Assembly (NCBI GenBank): GCA_019638795.1
Contig: JAHBTB010000006.1
Coordinates: 62,001 to 126,000 of the forward strand
Source: Fimbriimonadaceae bacterium
GTDB taxonomy: Bacteria; Armatimonadota; Fimbriimonadia; Fimbriimonadales; Fimbriimonadaceae
Length of the DNA stretch: 64,000 bases
Direction: 5' to 3'
The notes under the pieces are model-generated. The model was given only the letters and a program-made list of their open reading frames with translations, ran no database searches and was not told where the DNA came from. Shown piece by piece: positions 35,500 to 49,334 of this stretch (position 1 is the first letter of the stretch; every line of letters starts with the position of its first letter). Both the position numbers and the translations under genes were made by a program.

Positions 35500-35604
35500 A
35501 CATTCATTGTCAGCTTGCACAGGTGCATTTCTTGATGTGTAGAGTGCGTGATATCCGGTAGGACTAACAGGCTTGCGTGACCATATTTGAGTTCACGTGC
35601 CTGA

Positions 35605-35610
35605 TAGACT
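35605..35610 (+). promoter_or_regulatory. -10-like TAGACT for the small membrane gene
   Basis: TAGACT is seven bases before the GTG at 35618. Confidence 0.4.
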
Positions 35611-35617
35611 TACCATC

Positions 35618-35818
35618 GTGTTCCTCCCCAGTCGAGAAGAGATCAAGCAGGCAGCGCGGCCCGCATTGTCCACGACGATTGTTGTTGTGGCAGGTGTCCT
35701 CGTCGCCGGGTTGCTGGTCCAGCGGCTCGGGGTCTTTGTCTTGCCGGCGTTGGCCGTCATCGTGCCCGGCGTCTGGGTCTACGAAGTGTGGCAAGTCCGC
35801 GCCGCGCAGGGTGTGTGA
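35618..35818 (+). CDS. Small two-helix membrane protein, unknown
   Basis: A 66-residue protein with a charged N-terminus (LPSREEIKQAARP) and two hydrophobic segments (TTIVVVAGVLVAGLLV; VFVLPALAVIVPGVWVY). The GTG at 35618 is chosen because TAGACT lies seven bases upstream; a GTG at 35597 would add seven residues. It follows the ATP synthase operon but has its own promoter-like hexamer. No family was recognised. Confidence 0.6.
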   Translation: MFLPSREEIKQAARPALSTTIVVVAGVLVAGLLVQRLGVFVLPALAVIVPGVWVYEVWQVRAAQGV

Positions 35819-35840: not shown

Positions 35841-36431
35841 CTAGCACCCCATGCAGGGTGAGGCGGCCGGCTTGGTCTTCATCGCTTCGAAGACCGACCG
35901 GAGTTGTTTGTGGGCGCGGTGGAGGCGGGAGCGGATCGTGCCGACCGGCGCGTCGAACATTTCGGCGATCTCGTTGTAGCTGACACCCTCGACGTCCGCC
36001 AGCCAGACCAGACGGCGCTGCTCCTCGGTCAATTGCTTCAACGACGCCTCCATCTCTTCGGAGAGGATGCCGTCCAGCAACACCTCTTCGGGGCCGGGGC
36101 GGTCGTCGGCGGTTTCAAAGTGGACTGTCTCGTCCCGACCGTCCGGACGCAGCGGGGCGTCATATGACATCGCCTGGACACGCCGGCTCCGCGACCGCTT
36201 GAGGTCGAGGAACAGGCGGGTGACGATGCGGAAGATCCAGTTTTCAAAGGGGCGGTCGCCCTCATAAGCGTCAAAACCGCGATAGGCACGGTAGAAGGCC
36301 TCTTGGGTAAGGTCCTCCGCGTCCCCACGGTCGCCGGACAGCCGGTATGCCAGGTTGAACACCTTCTTGTAGCTCCCCTGCATCAGGTCGTTGAACCGAG
36401 AGTCGTTGCCGATTGCGAGTGTTTGTGCCAT
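35841..36431 (-). CDS. ECF-type sigma-70 family factor with C-terminal CxxC
   Basis: A 196-residue ECF sigma factor. Region 2 is clear (VFNLAYRLSGDRGDAEDLTQEAFYRAYRGF, split here as VFNLAYRLSG and AEDLTQEAFYRAYRGF), and region 4 ends in a helix-turn-helix (VSYNEIAEMFDAPVGTIRSRLHRA). The last residues are SPCMGC, a CxxC pair after region 4 that could bind metal or act as a thiol switch; this is speculation. No anti-sigma gene is adjacent on the same strand. It lies downstream of the small gene at 36623, beyond a strong terminator. Confidence 0.93.
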   Translation of the reverse strand: MAQTLAIGNDSRFNDLMQGSYKKVFNLAYRLSGDRGDAEDLTQEAFYRAYRGFDAYEGDRPFENWIFRIVTRLFLDLKRSRSRRVQAMSYDAPLRPDGRDETVHFETADDRPGPEEVLLDGILSEEMEASLKQLTEEQRRLVWLADVEGVSYNEIAEMFDAPVGTIRSRLHRAHKQLRSVFEAMKTKPAASPCMGC

Positions 36432-36585: not shown

Positions 36586-36614
36586 AAAACCTCCGCCCGA
36601 TGGGCGGAGGTTTT
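36586..36614. terminator. Strong bidirectional intrinsic terminator
   Basis: A 13-bp perfect stem, AAAACCTCCGCCC (36586-36598) and GGGCGGAGGTTTT (36602-36614), with a three-base loop and T-tracts on both strands. It directly follows the small gene at 36623. The stretch 36432-36585 holds the sigma-factor promoter region and no gene that I can support. Confidence 0.92.
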
Positions 36615-36622
36615 GTTCAGGC

Positions 36623-36790
36623 TCAGTCCTGCTTGAACGTCAGTGCGAAAACGTGCGAGAACATCTTTTCGACTTGCTCGACAATGCTCTCTTGGCTTTC
36701 CTTCACCGGTTCGGCCTTTGGTTCCGATTTCCGTTGGAACAGACCCAGCCACCCCGTCCACGGCAGGCGCCGTGATGGTGATACCACCAT
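36623..36790 (-). CDS. 55-residue protein in an isolated small transcription unit
   Basis: A short gene of 56 codons. The ATG at 36790 has AAGGAGA about seven bases upstream, one of the best ribosome-binding sites in the window, and a 13-bp terminator begins nine bases after the stop. The product has a basic, Trp-containing N-terminus (SRRLPWTGWLGLFQRKS) and a charged C-terminal helix (VKESQESIVEQVEKMFSHV). It could be an amphipathic or partner-binding peptide; no family was recognised. A sigma-54-like promoter lies ~135 bases upstream, directly after the NtrC-type gene. A TACAAT at 36805-36810 is another possible promoter. Confidence 0.68.
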   Translation of the reverse strand: MVVSPSRRLPWTGWLGLFQRKSEPKAEPVKESQESIVEQVEKMFSHVFALTFKQD

Positions 36791-36935
36791 GTTTGTGTCT
36801 CCTTATTGTACGAACCCACGTCTACCCGTGGTAAGGCCAGGCTCATCTGCGGCCTGATGCATGGACGATCCTTGTCCACACGCCTTGAGTCTCCAGTGAC
36901 TTGCTTATCTTGACGGCGGATTGTCGCCCGACTGG

Positions 36936-36951
36936 AGCACGGCCTAAGCCA
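36936..36951 (-). promoter_or_regulatory. Possible sigma-54 promoter
   Basis: On the minus strand, TGGCTTAGGCCGTGCT has GG and GC exactly ten bases apart and matches TGGCAC-N5-TTGCW except for two bases in the first box and one in the second. Initiation would be near 36925, giving a ~135-base leader to the small gene. It lies 24 bases after the NtrC-type gene. A chance match is possible. Confidence 0.4.
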
Positions 36952-36974
36952 CAAGGCCCGCTATGGTCCCAATT

Positions 36975-38159
36975 CTAAGCGGCGGGACGAAGTTTGACGG
37001 GCAGGTGCTTGAGGGCCAGTTCGGACTCGTTCGACCCGGCCATGACGGTGGCGCGCTCCATGGTGTTCTCCAGTTCGCGCACATTGCCGGGCCAATCGTA
37101 GGCCAACAGGCAACGCTCCGCCTCCTGGCCGACCTGCTCCAGCCCCCGCCCGTTCTCTTCGCTGTACTTGGCGAGGTAGTGGCGGCACAGCGGCAAGATG
37201 TCCTCGCGCCGATGGCGCAGGGGAGGCAACGGAATCTCGACCACTTGGAGTCGGTAGAGGAGGTCCAGCCGGAAGGTGCCTTCGTCGACCAGATGCTGGA
37301 GGTCTTGGTTTGTCGCTGTGACGAGCCGCACGTCAATGTGAGTAGTTTTTGTCGCGCCAAGCCTCTCAATTTCACGCTCTTGCAGCACGCGCAGCAACTT
37401 GATTTGCGTGGCCATGGGGATATCGCCGATCTCGTCGAGAAACAGCGTCCCGTTGTGGGCGAGTTCGAACCGCCCGGGCTTGGCGCTGTCAGCCCCGGTG
37501 AAGGCCCCCTTCTCGTGGCCGAAGAGCTCGGCCTCCAGCAAGGTCTCCGGCAGGGCGGCGCACGAAACGGCGACAAAGGGTTGCTCGGCCCGTGGCGACA
37601 TGGTGTGGAGCAGCCGGGCGACGACTTCCTTTCCTGTACCACTCTCGCCGGTGACCAGCACGGTGGCCCGGGAGTCAGCGACTTGGCGGACGGTCTCAAG
37701 AATCTCCTTCATCGCGGGAGACTCGGCGATGAACGTCCGACCGACGTCACCTTTCGCGGCACGCTTGGGCGAAGGGGCTTGGCCGACGCCCCGGCCCTCC
37801 AGAGCGGCACCGATGACCCGCTTCAAGGACTCCAGGTCGAACGGTTTCGTGATGTATTCGTAGGCCCCGCGCCGGATCGCGTCGACCGCCTGGGGGATCG
37901 TGCCGAAGGCCGTCATGATGATGACGGGCAGTCCGGGATGGGACGCCGCGACCCGGCGGTGGAGTTCGTATCCCGTCATGCCGGGCATGGTCACGTCGGT
38001 CAGGAGGCAGTCGACCGGTTCCTTGGCCAAGGTCTCCAGAGCTTGGAGGCCGTCTTCGGCGGTCAGGGTCAGCCAGCCATGTTTTTCGAACGCGGCCTGG
38101 AGGATGCGCCTGATGTTCTGCTCGTCGTCAACGACGAGCACCCGCTTCTTGTCCTTCAT
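36975..38159 (-). CDS. NtrC-family response regulator lacking a DNA-binding domain
   Basis: A 394-residue sigma-54 activator. The receiver domain (1-~120) has the acidic pair VDDE, phospho-acceptor D55 (LLTDVTMPG), a Thr in MTAFGT and Lys in ITKPFD. The AAA+ domain (~145-380) has Walker A GESGTGKE at 171-178, the sigma-54 contact loop GAFTGA at 218-223 and Walker B GTLFLDEIGD at 237-246. The protein ends at KHLPVKLRPAA, where a Fis-type helix-turn-helix would normally follow. Helicobacter FlgR and Chlamydia CtcC are known HTH-less relatives. The ATG at 38159 overlaps the kinase stop as ATGA and is preferred to the one at 38177. Confidence 0.94.
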   Translation of the reverse strand: MKDKKRVLVVDDEQNIRRILQAAFEKHGWLTLTAEDGLQALETLAKEPVDCLLTDVTMPGMTGYELHRRVAASHPGLPVIIMTAFGTIPQAVDAIRRGAYEYITKPFDLESLKRVIGAALEGRGVGQAPSPKRAAKGDVGRTFIAESPAMKEILETVRQVADSRATVLVTGESGTGKEVVARLLHTMSPRAEQPFVAVSCAALPETLLEAELFGHEKGAFTGADSAKPGRFELAHNGTLFLDEIGDIPMATQIKLLRVLQEREIERLGATKTTHIDVRLVTATNQDLQHLVDEGTFRLDLLYRLQVVEIPLPPLRHRREDILPLCRHYLAKYSEENGRGLEQVGQEAERCLLAYDWPGNVRELENTMERATVMAGSNESELALKHLPVKLRPAA

Positions 38160-39679
38160 GCCCTTGGCGCTTCCCATGTCAGTTCAAACGTGCTCCCTTT
38201 GCCCGGTGCCGACTCGACCCGGATGCTGCCCCCGTGCGCGTCCATGATCTTCCGCGCCGTGCTCAGCCCCAGCCCGGTCCCGTCCGCCTTGGTGGTGAAA
38301 AACGGGGAGAACAGCCTGCCGAGTTGGTCCTCGGTCATGCCGGCCCCTTCGTCCTCAACCTTCAAACTGTTCGCGTCGGCAGACAAGCGGACGGTGTTGC
38401 CCCTTGGCGACGCCTGGGCGGCGTTGCGGAGCAGGTTCACCACCACTTGCTTGATCCGTCGCGGGTCCAGTTCAATCTTCGGAAGACCAGGGGCGACCTC
38501 CACACGGAGCGAGACGCCAACTTCGTCAAAATCAGGTCCGACCAGTAGGACGGCGGCGCGGCAGAGTTCCGCGACGTCCGTGGGTTCGGGGTGGATCTGG
38601 AGCGGCCGGGCGAACTCAAGGAAGTCCTCGCACAGGTCGTTCAGGCGGAGCACCTCCTCCTCGATCATCTGGACCAGTTCCTGGGTCATCGCGGGGTCTT
38701 GGCCGATCATCGCGGCGGCAGAGCGGATTCCTGTCAGCGGGTTGCGTATCTCGTGGGCGACGGCGGCGGTCATCTGGCCGATCTCCGCCAGCCGCTTGAC
38801 CCGGGCCACCTCCCGGTTCTGGCGTTCGATCGCGGTCGTCTCCTTGACGGTCACCACCGCACCGCCCGACCGCAAGGGGACGCCCTCGACCAGCCACGTG
38901 CGGTCGGCACCGGACTCATGGGCCTGGTGCCGCGTGGGCCGCTGGACTTTCAGGGTCTCGTGCGTGACCAGTTTGAGCGCGTTCTGGACTTCACTGAGGT
39001 CGGCGTCCGCCCCACCGGTCAGGAAGGAGTCTTCGGCCGCGGCCCGGTTGTGGTTGACGACGTCGCCATGGTCGTCGACGACGACCACGGCACCGGCCAC
39101 GCTGTCGAGCACGGCGGTCAGTTTCTCGTTCATGGCCCGGAGGTCGTTCTCCCGCGCGGCCATCGCGGAGACGATCTGGGCGTTGGTGACAGCCAGGACG
39201 ACTTGGGCACCGAGCGTACTGGCGAGGTCGAGCTCTTCCAGGGTGTAGGGCGGCTCGTCAAGGGTGCGGGACAGGTTGATGACGCCGGCGGCCAACCCGT
39301 CGTCGCCGACCAGGGGCACGACCATCGCGCTGGTCAGCGATTGGTTGCGTTGGATGCCCGACCCCTTGAAGAGCGGATCCTTGGTGGGGTCTTCGATGAT
39401 CCGGGGTTCCCCGGTCTGGAGGACAAGGCCCGCGATGCCGTGGCCGATCCGGACACTGGCATTCTTGGAGAGGTGCCGCTGCGTGCCCGTGGCGGCGCGC
39501 AGGGTGTGCTCCCCCGACTTGGGGTCGAGGAGGAAGATCGAGCCGCCCGAGGCCCGGAACCAGTGCGCGCTCCGTTCGAGGGTTTCGACCAGGTAGGTTT
39601 GGAGGCCCGACTCGAACAACGTGGTGAGGTCGAACAGGTCCCACAGACCGCGGACGACTGGTGCGGGGGCCGAGGCCAT
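38156..39679 (-). CDS. Soluble sensor histidine kinase (GAF-PAS-HisKA-HATPase)
   Basis: A 507-residue kinase with no membrane helices, so it probably senses an internal signal. A GAF domain covers ~25-170 (GSIFLLDPKSGEHTLRAATG; GIAGLVLQTGEP), a PAS-like domain ~185-285, the HisKA helix carries H309 in AAVAHEIRNPLTG, and the ATPase domain has VVNLLRNAAQA, EDEGAGM, FFTTKADGTGLGLS. It is translationally coupled to the NtrC-type regulator and should phosphorylate it. The GAF ligand is unknown. A GACAAT hexamer is nine bases before the ATG. Confidence 0.95.
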   Translation of the reverse strand: MASAPAPVVRGLWDLFDLTTLFESGLQTYLVETLERSAHWFRASGGSIFLLDPKSGEHTLRAATGTQRHLSKNASVRIGHGIAGLVLQTGEPRIIEDPTKDPLFKGSGIQRNQSLTSAMVVPLVGDDGLAAGVINLSRTLDEPPYTLEELDLASTLGAQVVLAVTNAQIVSAMAARENDLRAMNEKLTAVLDSVAGAVVVVDDHGDVVNHNRAAAEDSFLTGGADADLSEVQNALKLVTHETLKVQRPTRHQAHESGADRTWLVEGVPLRSGGAVVTVKETTAIERQNREVARVKRLAEIGQMTAAVAHEIRNPLTGIRSAAAMIGQDPAMTQELVQMIEEEVLRLNDLCEDFLEFARPLQIHPEPTDVAELCRAAVLLVGPDFDEVGVSLRVEVAPGLPKIELDPRRIKQVVVNLLRNAAQASPRGNTVRLSADANSLKVEDEGAGMTEDQLGRLFSPFFTTKADGTGLGLSTARKIMDAHGGSIRVESAPGKGSTFELTWEAPRA

Positions 39680-48178: not shown

Positions 48179-49334
48179 CCATGGCGACGCGTTTGATCAC
48201 CGAGGTGCGCAGGGCGTTGTTGCGTGAGGTCTGAATCTTCACTTCGCTGCCGACCGGCCCCTCCATCATGGCTTCGATGGCCCGGTAACTTTGCGAGGTC
48301 ATGTCCACCCCTCCCACGCTCAGAAGGAAGTCTCCCGCCTTGATGCCCGCCTTGTCGGCCGGGCTGTCGGGAGTGACCCGCGCGATGCGGACACGCTTGA
48401 CGCGGGGGTCGTAGATCGCCGAGACGCCGGTGTGGGCGACCTCGGGCTCGCTGACTTGGCCGGTGAAGTTCTCCAGCCACACCCGTCGGCGTTCGAGGTC
48501 AAAGGTGAGGTTGAAGTTTTTGAGGAACCCGAACCCGACGGTGCCGTCGCCTTCGGCCGAACTGGAGGGGAGGTCGATGATGCTCCAGACGCTCTCGGGC
48601 ACGGGGACCCCGAAGACGGTCAAGTCCTTCATCCGGCAGTACCACGAGTCCACCGCGCCGGTCGCGACAAAGGACTTCTTGAGGAACTTCGCTTCGCGTC
48701 CTTCTTTCCAGATACCGACGCGCTCGAGCACGTCCCGATGGGTCGTGGCGTAAAAGGCGTTGCCCGTGTCGAGGGCGAGGTGCATGCTTTGGCCGTCTTT
48801 GGTCTTCACCGAGAGCTCGATGGACTTGTTGCCGATGGGGAGCATCTTGACCAGGAAGGTCTTCTTGTTGTCCGGTTGCCGCTGGGTGATGTCGGTGGAC
48901 TTGGGGTGCAAGAGCATGACCTTGCGCTGGAAGTTGATCTCCACCACATAGGGGGCGACGACCGAGAGGCCCATGATGCCGTCGACGTGGGTGCCGTAGC
49001 TGAAGGAGTAGTCCGAGCCGCCGGGCTCTTGGATGATCTCCTTGTCGGTCTGGACGATGCTCTTTCCGGCCAACTTGACCGATTTGATCGCGATCGTCTT
49101 CATCTCGGCCGTGCCGACGAAGTCTTGGATGCGGGTCGTGCCCGTCGGCGGGCCGACGTTGACCTCTTCGCTGAGCACGAACGACCCCGAAAACCCGGTG
49201 TCGAACATGCAGGAAATCTTTTTGCCGTTCACCTCGACATCGACGATCATCGCGTTTTCGCCGACACGGAACGGCACTTCGATCGGTTCGGCGCGGGTGA
49301 CCGCGGCGATTCCAAGGAGCAGGGCGGTGGTCAT
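48165..49334 (-). CDS. Exported double-DTG aspartic-protease-like protein with PDZ domain
   Basis: A 389-residue protein with a signal-like start ([14 protein letters not shown]). Two retropepsin-like halves each carry a DTG: D45 in [10 protein letters not shown] and D189 in [16 protein letters not shown] domain follows (~315-380; [18 protein letters not shown]). Two DTG lobes in one chain could form a complete active site. The ATG at 49334 is chosen, with a purine-rich AAGAGAAG before it. Protease activity is inference from the motifs. Confidence 0.83.

Follow-up and report, generated by a model that had tools for sequence, protein, structure and literature searches.

A family of tiny proteins in relatives of Fimbriimonas, very probably each encoded behind a conserved folded RNA

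Genes for small proteins that lie behind regulatory RNA leaders are known, the downstream-peptide/glutamine riboswitch motif being one example. The subject of this report is a 55-codon open reading frame (ORF) of a Fimbriimonadaceae bacterium, located within a 64,000-nucleotide stretch of DNA that was analysed as a whole (the window). The small gene very probably represents an unnamed family of tiny proteins in relatives of Fimbriimonas, each of them encoded behind a conserved folded RNA. The ORF is under purifying selection, the family to which it belongs counts 23 divergent members, and covariation shows that the hairpins of the leader, adjacent to its Shine-Dalgarno (SD) sequence, are conserved. 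Along the minus strand of the window, a histidine kinase gene and an NtrC-like regulator gene are followed by 184 nt without a recognised gene, then by the small ORF, a terminator and an ECF sigma factor gene:

38156 to 39679, minus strand: GAF-domain histidine kinase (Pfam)
36975 to 38177, minus strand: NtrC-like, sigma-54-interacting response regulator (Pfam PF00072, PF00158)
36799 to 36804, minus strand: SD sequence AAGGAG, 8 nt 5' of the ATG
36623 to 36790, minus strand: 55-codon small-protein ORF (conserved in a congener, dN/dS 0.24, 23-member family)
36586 to 36614, minus strand: intrinsic terminator hairpin with a 9-bp GC-rich core, A4/T5 flanks and the loop ATC
35841 to 36431, minus strand: ECF-type sigma factor, the downstream neighbour (Pfam PF04542/PF08281)

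Read directly from the sequence, the frame runs from an ATG to a TGA (36790-36623). An earlier note on this DNA had proposed an overlooked 55-residue gene here with a near-consensus ribosome-binding site, a description that fits the AAGGAG at 36804-36799. It had also placed a strong terminator just past the stop codon, and the stem does begin at the ninth base, after 8 nt. Read from 36614 to 36586, the terminator is AAAACCTCCGCCC-ATC-GGGCGGAGGTTTT, then one more T, and none of 200 dinucleotide shuffles of the 60 nt past the stop reached its stem score. A promoter and terminator scan of the window left this terminator unlisted and gave two sites elsewhere, on the plus strand, against a shuffle mean of 3.4. 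Further SD-preceded ATG ORFs of 45-58 codons are found in the window at 48302 (minus), 48577 (plus), 51058 (minus) and 6071 (plus), and between AtpG and the ECF sigma gene lies a plus-strand ORF of 73 residues (35597-35818) with a hydrophobic middle and no Pfam match.

A scan of the window for an SD sequence ahead of an ORF of 45-70 codons returned six rows that amount to five distinct ORFs, the 55-codon ORF included. This recurrence speaks for a chance ORF, situated between the regulator gene and the terminator of a kinase-regulator operon. Since an SD sequence with an ORF of such size is not rare on its own, it is conservation that raises the 55-codon ORF above chance. In the only congener compared (G044), an ORF stands at the same place after the same regulator, with 55 codons, no stop and 73% protein identity. 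The earlier note had named a comparison of synonymous and nonsynonymous rates among relatives as a check, and the pair formed by the window and G044 gives dN 0.172, dS 0.709 and dN/dS 0.24 (this genus being represented in the selection test by these two genomes only). Twenty of the 37 substitutions fall at third positions (binomial p 0.007), and a pN/pS as low was obtained in 0 of 2000 trials in which the same number of substitutions was placed at random. Two more pairs from the wider family behave alike, with dN 0.10 and dS 1.0 for G016/G009 and dN 0.33 and dS 1.18 for G021/G018. A chance ORF is contradicted by the dN/dS test and by the family as a whole, 14 members of which occur without a regulator found upstream in the fetched stretch, and is extremely improbable. 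Judged from its sequence, the 55-codon ORF is almost certainly a real, translated gene, as had been claimed.

The family was assembled from both protein and RNA evidence. A single-sequence search of 85 genomes of the bacterial family gave confident matches in the window's genus only (G044, E 4.9e-24). Close homologues of the regulator occur in 66 of the 85 genomes, and reading 3' of it, at the 29 of 30 fetched loci with a placeable stop, revealed similar units in G003, G001 and G013. G021, a weak match of the single-sequence search (E 0.046), has the same C-terminal motif with a terminator directly after it. These four, together with the window and G044, formed a first profile of six sequences, which was run over the 85 genomes and added 11 further members (E 4e-22 to 0.04), making 17. 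Members found by profile were accepted only after the locus had been read for an SD sequence, an ORF and a hairpin. G010 (E 0.022) and G054 (E 0.04) were accepted despite weak scores and are the sole accepted rows above E 0.002 in that search, while the weak rows G049, G035, G053, G027, G083 and a second one from G054 (C65) were rejected after locus printout. An SD-like purine run lies ahead of the start codon in all of the 22 members compared (GAGGGGG in G013).

A covariance model of the leader, built from 15 of the 17 leaders and holding no protein information, recovered its own 15 leaders and listed the known member G026 (E 0.0036); G008 was absent from its listing at E 1. Its matches lie directly 5' of homologous small ORFs in five more genomes, namely G069 (E 1.7e-6), G015 (8.4e-5), G016 (0.16), G009 (0.20) and G071 (0.32), and in this way it brought up members that had escaped the protein profile or stood low in its ranking; G016 and G009 had scored 0.1 and 0.5 with the six-sequence profile and entered the family at this stage. 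The RNA scores of G016, G009 and G071 (E 0.16-0.32) are no better than chance and worse than those of the false matches G004, G053 and G035 (C45), which were rejected on inspection with no homologous small ORF. The three are therefore counted as members by the ORF that follows or by location, having been chosen for inspection because they lay beside the regulator or had a weak profile match. A second protein profile, built from these 22 members, necessarily matched each of them and brought in one more, G025 (E 0.0098), whose small ORF lies 359 nt past its regulator. Two other matches of this profile, both at E 0.001, were rejected: G027 falls inside a long sigma-factor-like frame, and no frame was printed near the match in G049.

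In total, members were found in 23 of the 85 genomes and in 7 of 32 genera (g1, g2, g6, g16, g20, g29 and g32). None was detected in the other 62, including 7 of the 8 genomes of genus g32, some of the genomes being incomplete, and the gene is therefore dispensable. Outside the family, no profile match passed in 113 genomes of the class (E 0.01) or in 291 genomes of the phylum (E 0.001), the phylum-wide run scoring fewer candidates per genome. Six matches of the RNA model outside the family, at E 4e-4 to 0.009 (G103, G135, G148, G162, G241 and G257), were all inspected and rejected, with no homologous small ORF. A blastn search with the leader outside the genus gave short matches only, two of which (G082 and G054) lie at true members. 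Protein identity to P0001 outside the genus is 15-35%, and the membership of G069, G071, G015 and G025 rests as much on leader and place as on protein. Because the protein profile and the RNA model converge on the same loci, the family offers a clean case for testing small genes in a phylum that has received little study.

The proteins are 47-66 residues long, with a net charge of 0 to +8. The earlier description of a basic segment joined to a charged helix agrees with the family: the net charge of the first 25 residues is positive in 22 of 23 members (mean +4.4; G069, -1), the last 25 residues have a mean charge of -1.1, and a helix is predicted in the C-terminal part, which is conserved across the 7 genera. 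By eye, and with many departures, this part follows the pattern [FLVW]-[FLV]-x-x-[YFWV]-x-[KR]-[ML]-x-x-[HN]-Q-x-x-[LM], and it tends to an amphipathic helix. In 15 of 23 members, no more than 25 of 500 shuffles attained its helical moment (combined p 8e-12, taking related members as independent), and amphipathicity clearly fails in G022 (429/500 shuffles) and G082 (277/500). AlphaFold2, run on the alignment of 22 proteins, gave one helix at residues 36-53 with a mean pLDDT of 80 at residues 41-50 and low confidence overall (mean pLDDT 64.7, pTM 0.27). Five members scanned against Pfam and NCBIfam had no match up to E 10, and 22 members searched against PHROGs yielded two stray matches at E 0.3-0.4, in one member each. 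No description of either the protein or the leader was found in those parts of the open-licence literature that were accessible.

The space between the regulator and the small ORF contains the putative leader, with the following elements:

36791 to 36974, minus strand: stretch from the regulator stop to the small ORF (152 of 187 aligned columns identical to G044, counted from the regulator stop codon)
36863 to 36877, minus strand: extra hairpin GGAC-AAGGATC-GTCC, 5' of hairpin A, with GGA in the loop (from the sequence and G044)
36838 to 36856, minus strand: hairpin A, CAGGC...GCCTG (both-side changes in 3 of 5 pairs across 22 leaders)
36816 to 36831, minus strand: hairpin B, CCACG-GGTAGA-CGTGG, with the conserved CACGGG (identical in G044)

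The leader is 81% identical between the window and G044, and identity at four-fold degenerate sites in the same comparison is 50% for the regulator, 48% for the sigma factor, 52% for AtpG and 48% for the small ORF. The earlier note had given as refutation a frame lost in close relatives that keep the surrounding RNA structure; both the frame and the leader RNA are conserved. That the leader is a conserved RNA element in its own right, and the gene part of a family, goes beyond the note. Hairpin A most commonly has the form CGGAC/GUCCG (CAGGC/GCCUG in the window) and hairpin B the form GCAC/GUGC (CCAC/GUGG in the window), with both-side changes in 1 of the 4 pairs of B. The CACGGG form of hairpin B is departed from in G026, G008, G016 and G009 and partly in G071. 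Over hairpins A and B in 22 leaders, 91.7% of cells are paired against 85.0% in shuffles, 13 cells are double-changed against 3.0, and the covariation score is 0.218 against 0.105, each of these values being reached in 0 of 500 shuffles; controls in which the arms were slid scored at most 0.090. The 22-leader alignment was made to the RNA model, so that these counts lean towards the model. Two other measures of covariation are weak, pairs with double changes numbering 4 against 2.2 (24/500 shuffles) and further pair types 8 against 8.0 (327/500). When the arms were placed by hand, 102 of 110 cells were paired in A (0/2000 shuffles) and 98 of 110 in B (2/2000), and double-changed pairs did not exceed shuffles (A 253/2000, B 842/2000). 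Folded as a single sequence, the window leader shows no unusual stability (z -0.87). A functional RNA in this position is highly probable. Two leaders of genus g29, L153 and L158 (G069 and G071), share by eye a further motif, ACTCGCGGA-GAGCGTGT, 5' of hairpin A.

An SD-sequestering metabolite riboswitch would be one way to account for compact, covarying hairpins so near to the SD sequence, and by eye UUGACC and UGACUCCU in several leaders of genus g6 look complementary to AGGAGGUCA. A duplex test on 23 leaders, however, showed pairing of the 5' part with the SD sequence to be no better than in shuffles (Fisher p 0.67), and an anti-SD helix was rejected on this result. Searched with the window region and 17 loci, Rfam gave no match at the leader up to E 5-10, a tRNA upstream in L102 being the only feature to pass. 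Riboswitches usually control several metabolic genes, whereas those inspected matches of the RNA model that were real all precede one gene. A riboswitch is thus improbable. A pseudoknot between the C-rich stretch past hairpin A and the GGG of loop B, seen by eye in several leaders, was likewise rejected; its register differs between GGCC-type and CCC-type leaders, and G015 is without the stretch.

Repression by CsrA (RsmA), which would bind GGA in the hairpin loops and block the SD sequence, is a little less improbable than a riboswitch and still unlikely. CsrA is encoded by this genome (G000:C2:88689-88841, L188; E 5.5e-24), and the extra hairpin of the window resembles the CsrA consensus. 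The extra hairpin occurs by eye only in some members, however, and of 22 leaders one has GGA in loop A and five have it in loop B, the window being in neither group, so that CsrA comes into question for no more than a subgroup. Tandem GGAC...GUCC hairpins, as if duplicated, were seen by eye in the window (36863-36877) and at the loci of G054, G082 and G022.

The sequence of hairpin B (GGCACGG...) could alternatively be read as DNA, as a sigma-54 promoter at which the neighbouring NtrC-like regulator acts. The regulator has a sigma-54 interaction domain, and G048 reads TGGCACGG, which is like a -24 element. Against this reading, loop B varies from 5 to 12 nt and so leaves no fixed -24/-12 spacing, the window reads CCACGGG, the outer pair switches between G-C and C-G (22 leaders: G-C 13, C-G 3, G-U 1), and a start within hairpin B would fall close to the SD sequence. 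A sigma-54 promoter was rejected on the spacing and is very improbable.

Signals at the two ends of the unit recur across the family. A TATAAT-like box (at least five of six matches) stands 90-130 nt ahead of the start codon in 11 of 23 members, against a shuffle mean of 3.19 and maximum of 7 in 500 shuffles, the interval having been set after the positions were seen. No such box occurs at -130 to -90 in the window or in G044; in G007 a GGTATAAT box is found about 100 nt ahead of the small ORF. Past the stop codon, a gap-free stem (at most 10/200 shuffles) is present in 16 of 23 members, the window included, and 15 of 23 have a TTTT run close to the stem. In the seven members whose gap-free stem is no better than shuffles (G044, G008, G054, G069, G071, G016 and G009), putative hairpins with larger loops or bulges are seen. 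In G044 the hairpin at the same place is of other sequence, with a larger loop and a poor T-run. The earlier note had held that nothing but the small gene explains the terminator. This stands in part, given that 9 of the 14 members without a regulator found upstream have a gap-free hairpin 3' of the small ORF, but the terminator at 36614-36586 could also end transcripts of the upstream kinase-regulator genes.

The promoter-like boxes and the hairpins past the stop would together delimit a unit of about 300 nt, which is also what would be expected of a dual-function or purely regulatory small RNA whose leader acts in trans and whose ORF is secondary. The better conservation of the leader than of synonymous sites fits such an RNA, as does the GGG with which loop B opens in 17 of 22 leaders. 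Purifying selection on the ORF in three pairs and the conservation of the C-terminal part across 7 genera argue against it, and so does the position of hairpin B, whose 3' arm ends 19-29 nt ahead of the start codon in 22 of 22 leaders. A small RNA of this type is unlikely, if less so than control by CsrA. A genuine small-protein gene is better supported, and it most likely forms a short transcription unit of its own.

The neighbourhood of the small gene was compared in the 23 members by tblastn within the fetched stretches, counting genes on the same strand. The kinase and regulator are directly upstream in 9 of 23 members (141-359 nt), a beta-lactamase-like hydrolase is downstream in 9 (50-361 nt) and an ECF sigma homologue is downstream in 10 (175-2368 nt). 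Of the 23 members, 18 have one or more of regulator, hydrolase and sigma factor nearby, and none of the tested neighbours is found in the remaining five (G020, G023, G007, G010 and G069). In G044, the small gene is separated from the ECF sigma gene by a gene for a beta-lactamase-like serine hydrolase (PF13354; L033 4907-5824, minus strand), which is absent from this place in the window. The simplest history would be an ancestral cluster of kinase, regulator, small gene, hydrolase and sigma factor that later came apart, with the small unit moving as an intact whole. A link of the small gene to the neighbouring kinase/regulator/sigma circuit is a tentative suggestion, less probable than not.

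With fairly high probability, then, the locus is a small-protein gene that comprises a promoter, a structured 5' leader, an SD sequence, an ORF of 47-66 codons in the family and an intrinsic terminator. Transcription would begin from the -10 box that 11 of 23 members have immediately ahead of the leader, which would then be about 85-110 nt long. The leader hairpins may bind a factor acting in trans, either a protein or an RNA, by which translation of the small ORF is set; they are proposed as its binding site because hairpin B ends so close to the start codon. That the leader sets translation of the small ORF is, on balance, probable. The product may be a small adaptor, whose amphipathic C-terminal helix would dock on a partner protein or membrane while the basic N-terminal tail contacts nucleic acid or another acidic surface. 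Because the neighbours recur, it would most likely tune the circuit of kinase, NtrC-like regulator and ECF sigma factor, or an envelope response in which the beta-lactamase-like hydrolase takes part. A more speculative version, and a rather unlikely one as a whole, makes the leader a regulatory RNA of a new class, confined to relatives of Fimbriimonas, which would sense a factor and control a new microprotein serving as adaptor of the adjacent kinase/NtrC-like/ECF sigma envelope circuit. If true, this would be an RNA-gated microprotein regulator in a little-studied phylum.

The family may be compared with several known systems. The ribosome modulation factor and similar small basic stress proteins are likewise basic and of about 55 residues, but Pfam and NCBIfam gave no match up to E 10 in the five members scanned. 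Type I toxin messages such as hok and tisB are also short and structured and encode about 50 residues; the members of the present family inspected by eye appear to differ from them in having no long hydrophobic stretch, and the net charge in the family is 0 to +8 with a positive front part in 22 of 23. CsrA-repressed mRNA leaders share the short tandem hairpins beside the SD sequence, and CsrA is encoded in this genome, but their GGA loops are not conserved here (1/22 in A, 5/22 in B). The downstream-peptide/glutamine riboswitch type differs in that the leader described here has no Rfam match and was found, among the searched genomes, only in the window's family; it is alike in having a structured leader directly ahead of a short ORF of no known family. 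The locus brings to light a protein family and a structured leader that Pfam, NCBIfam (five members scanned in each), PHROGs and Rfam do not convincingly match. Both the protein family and the leader motif appear to be new, and the kind to which they belong is generally known.
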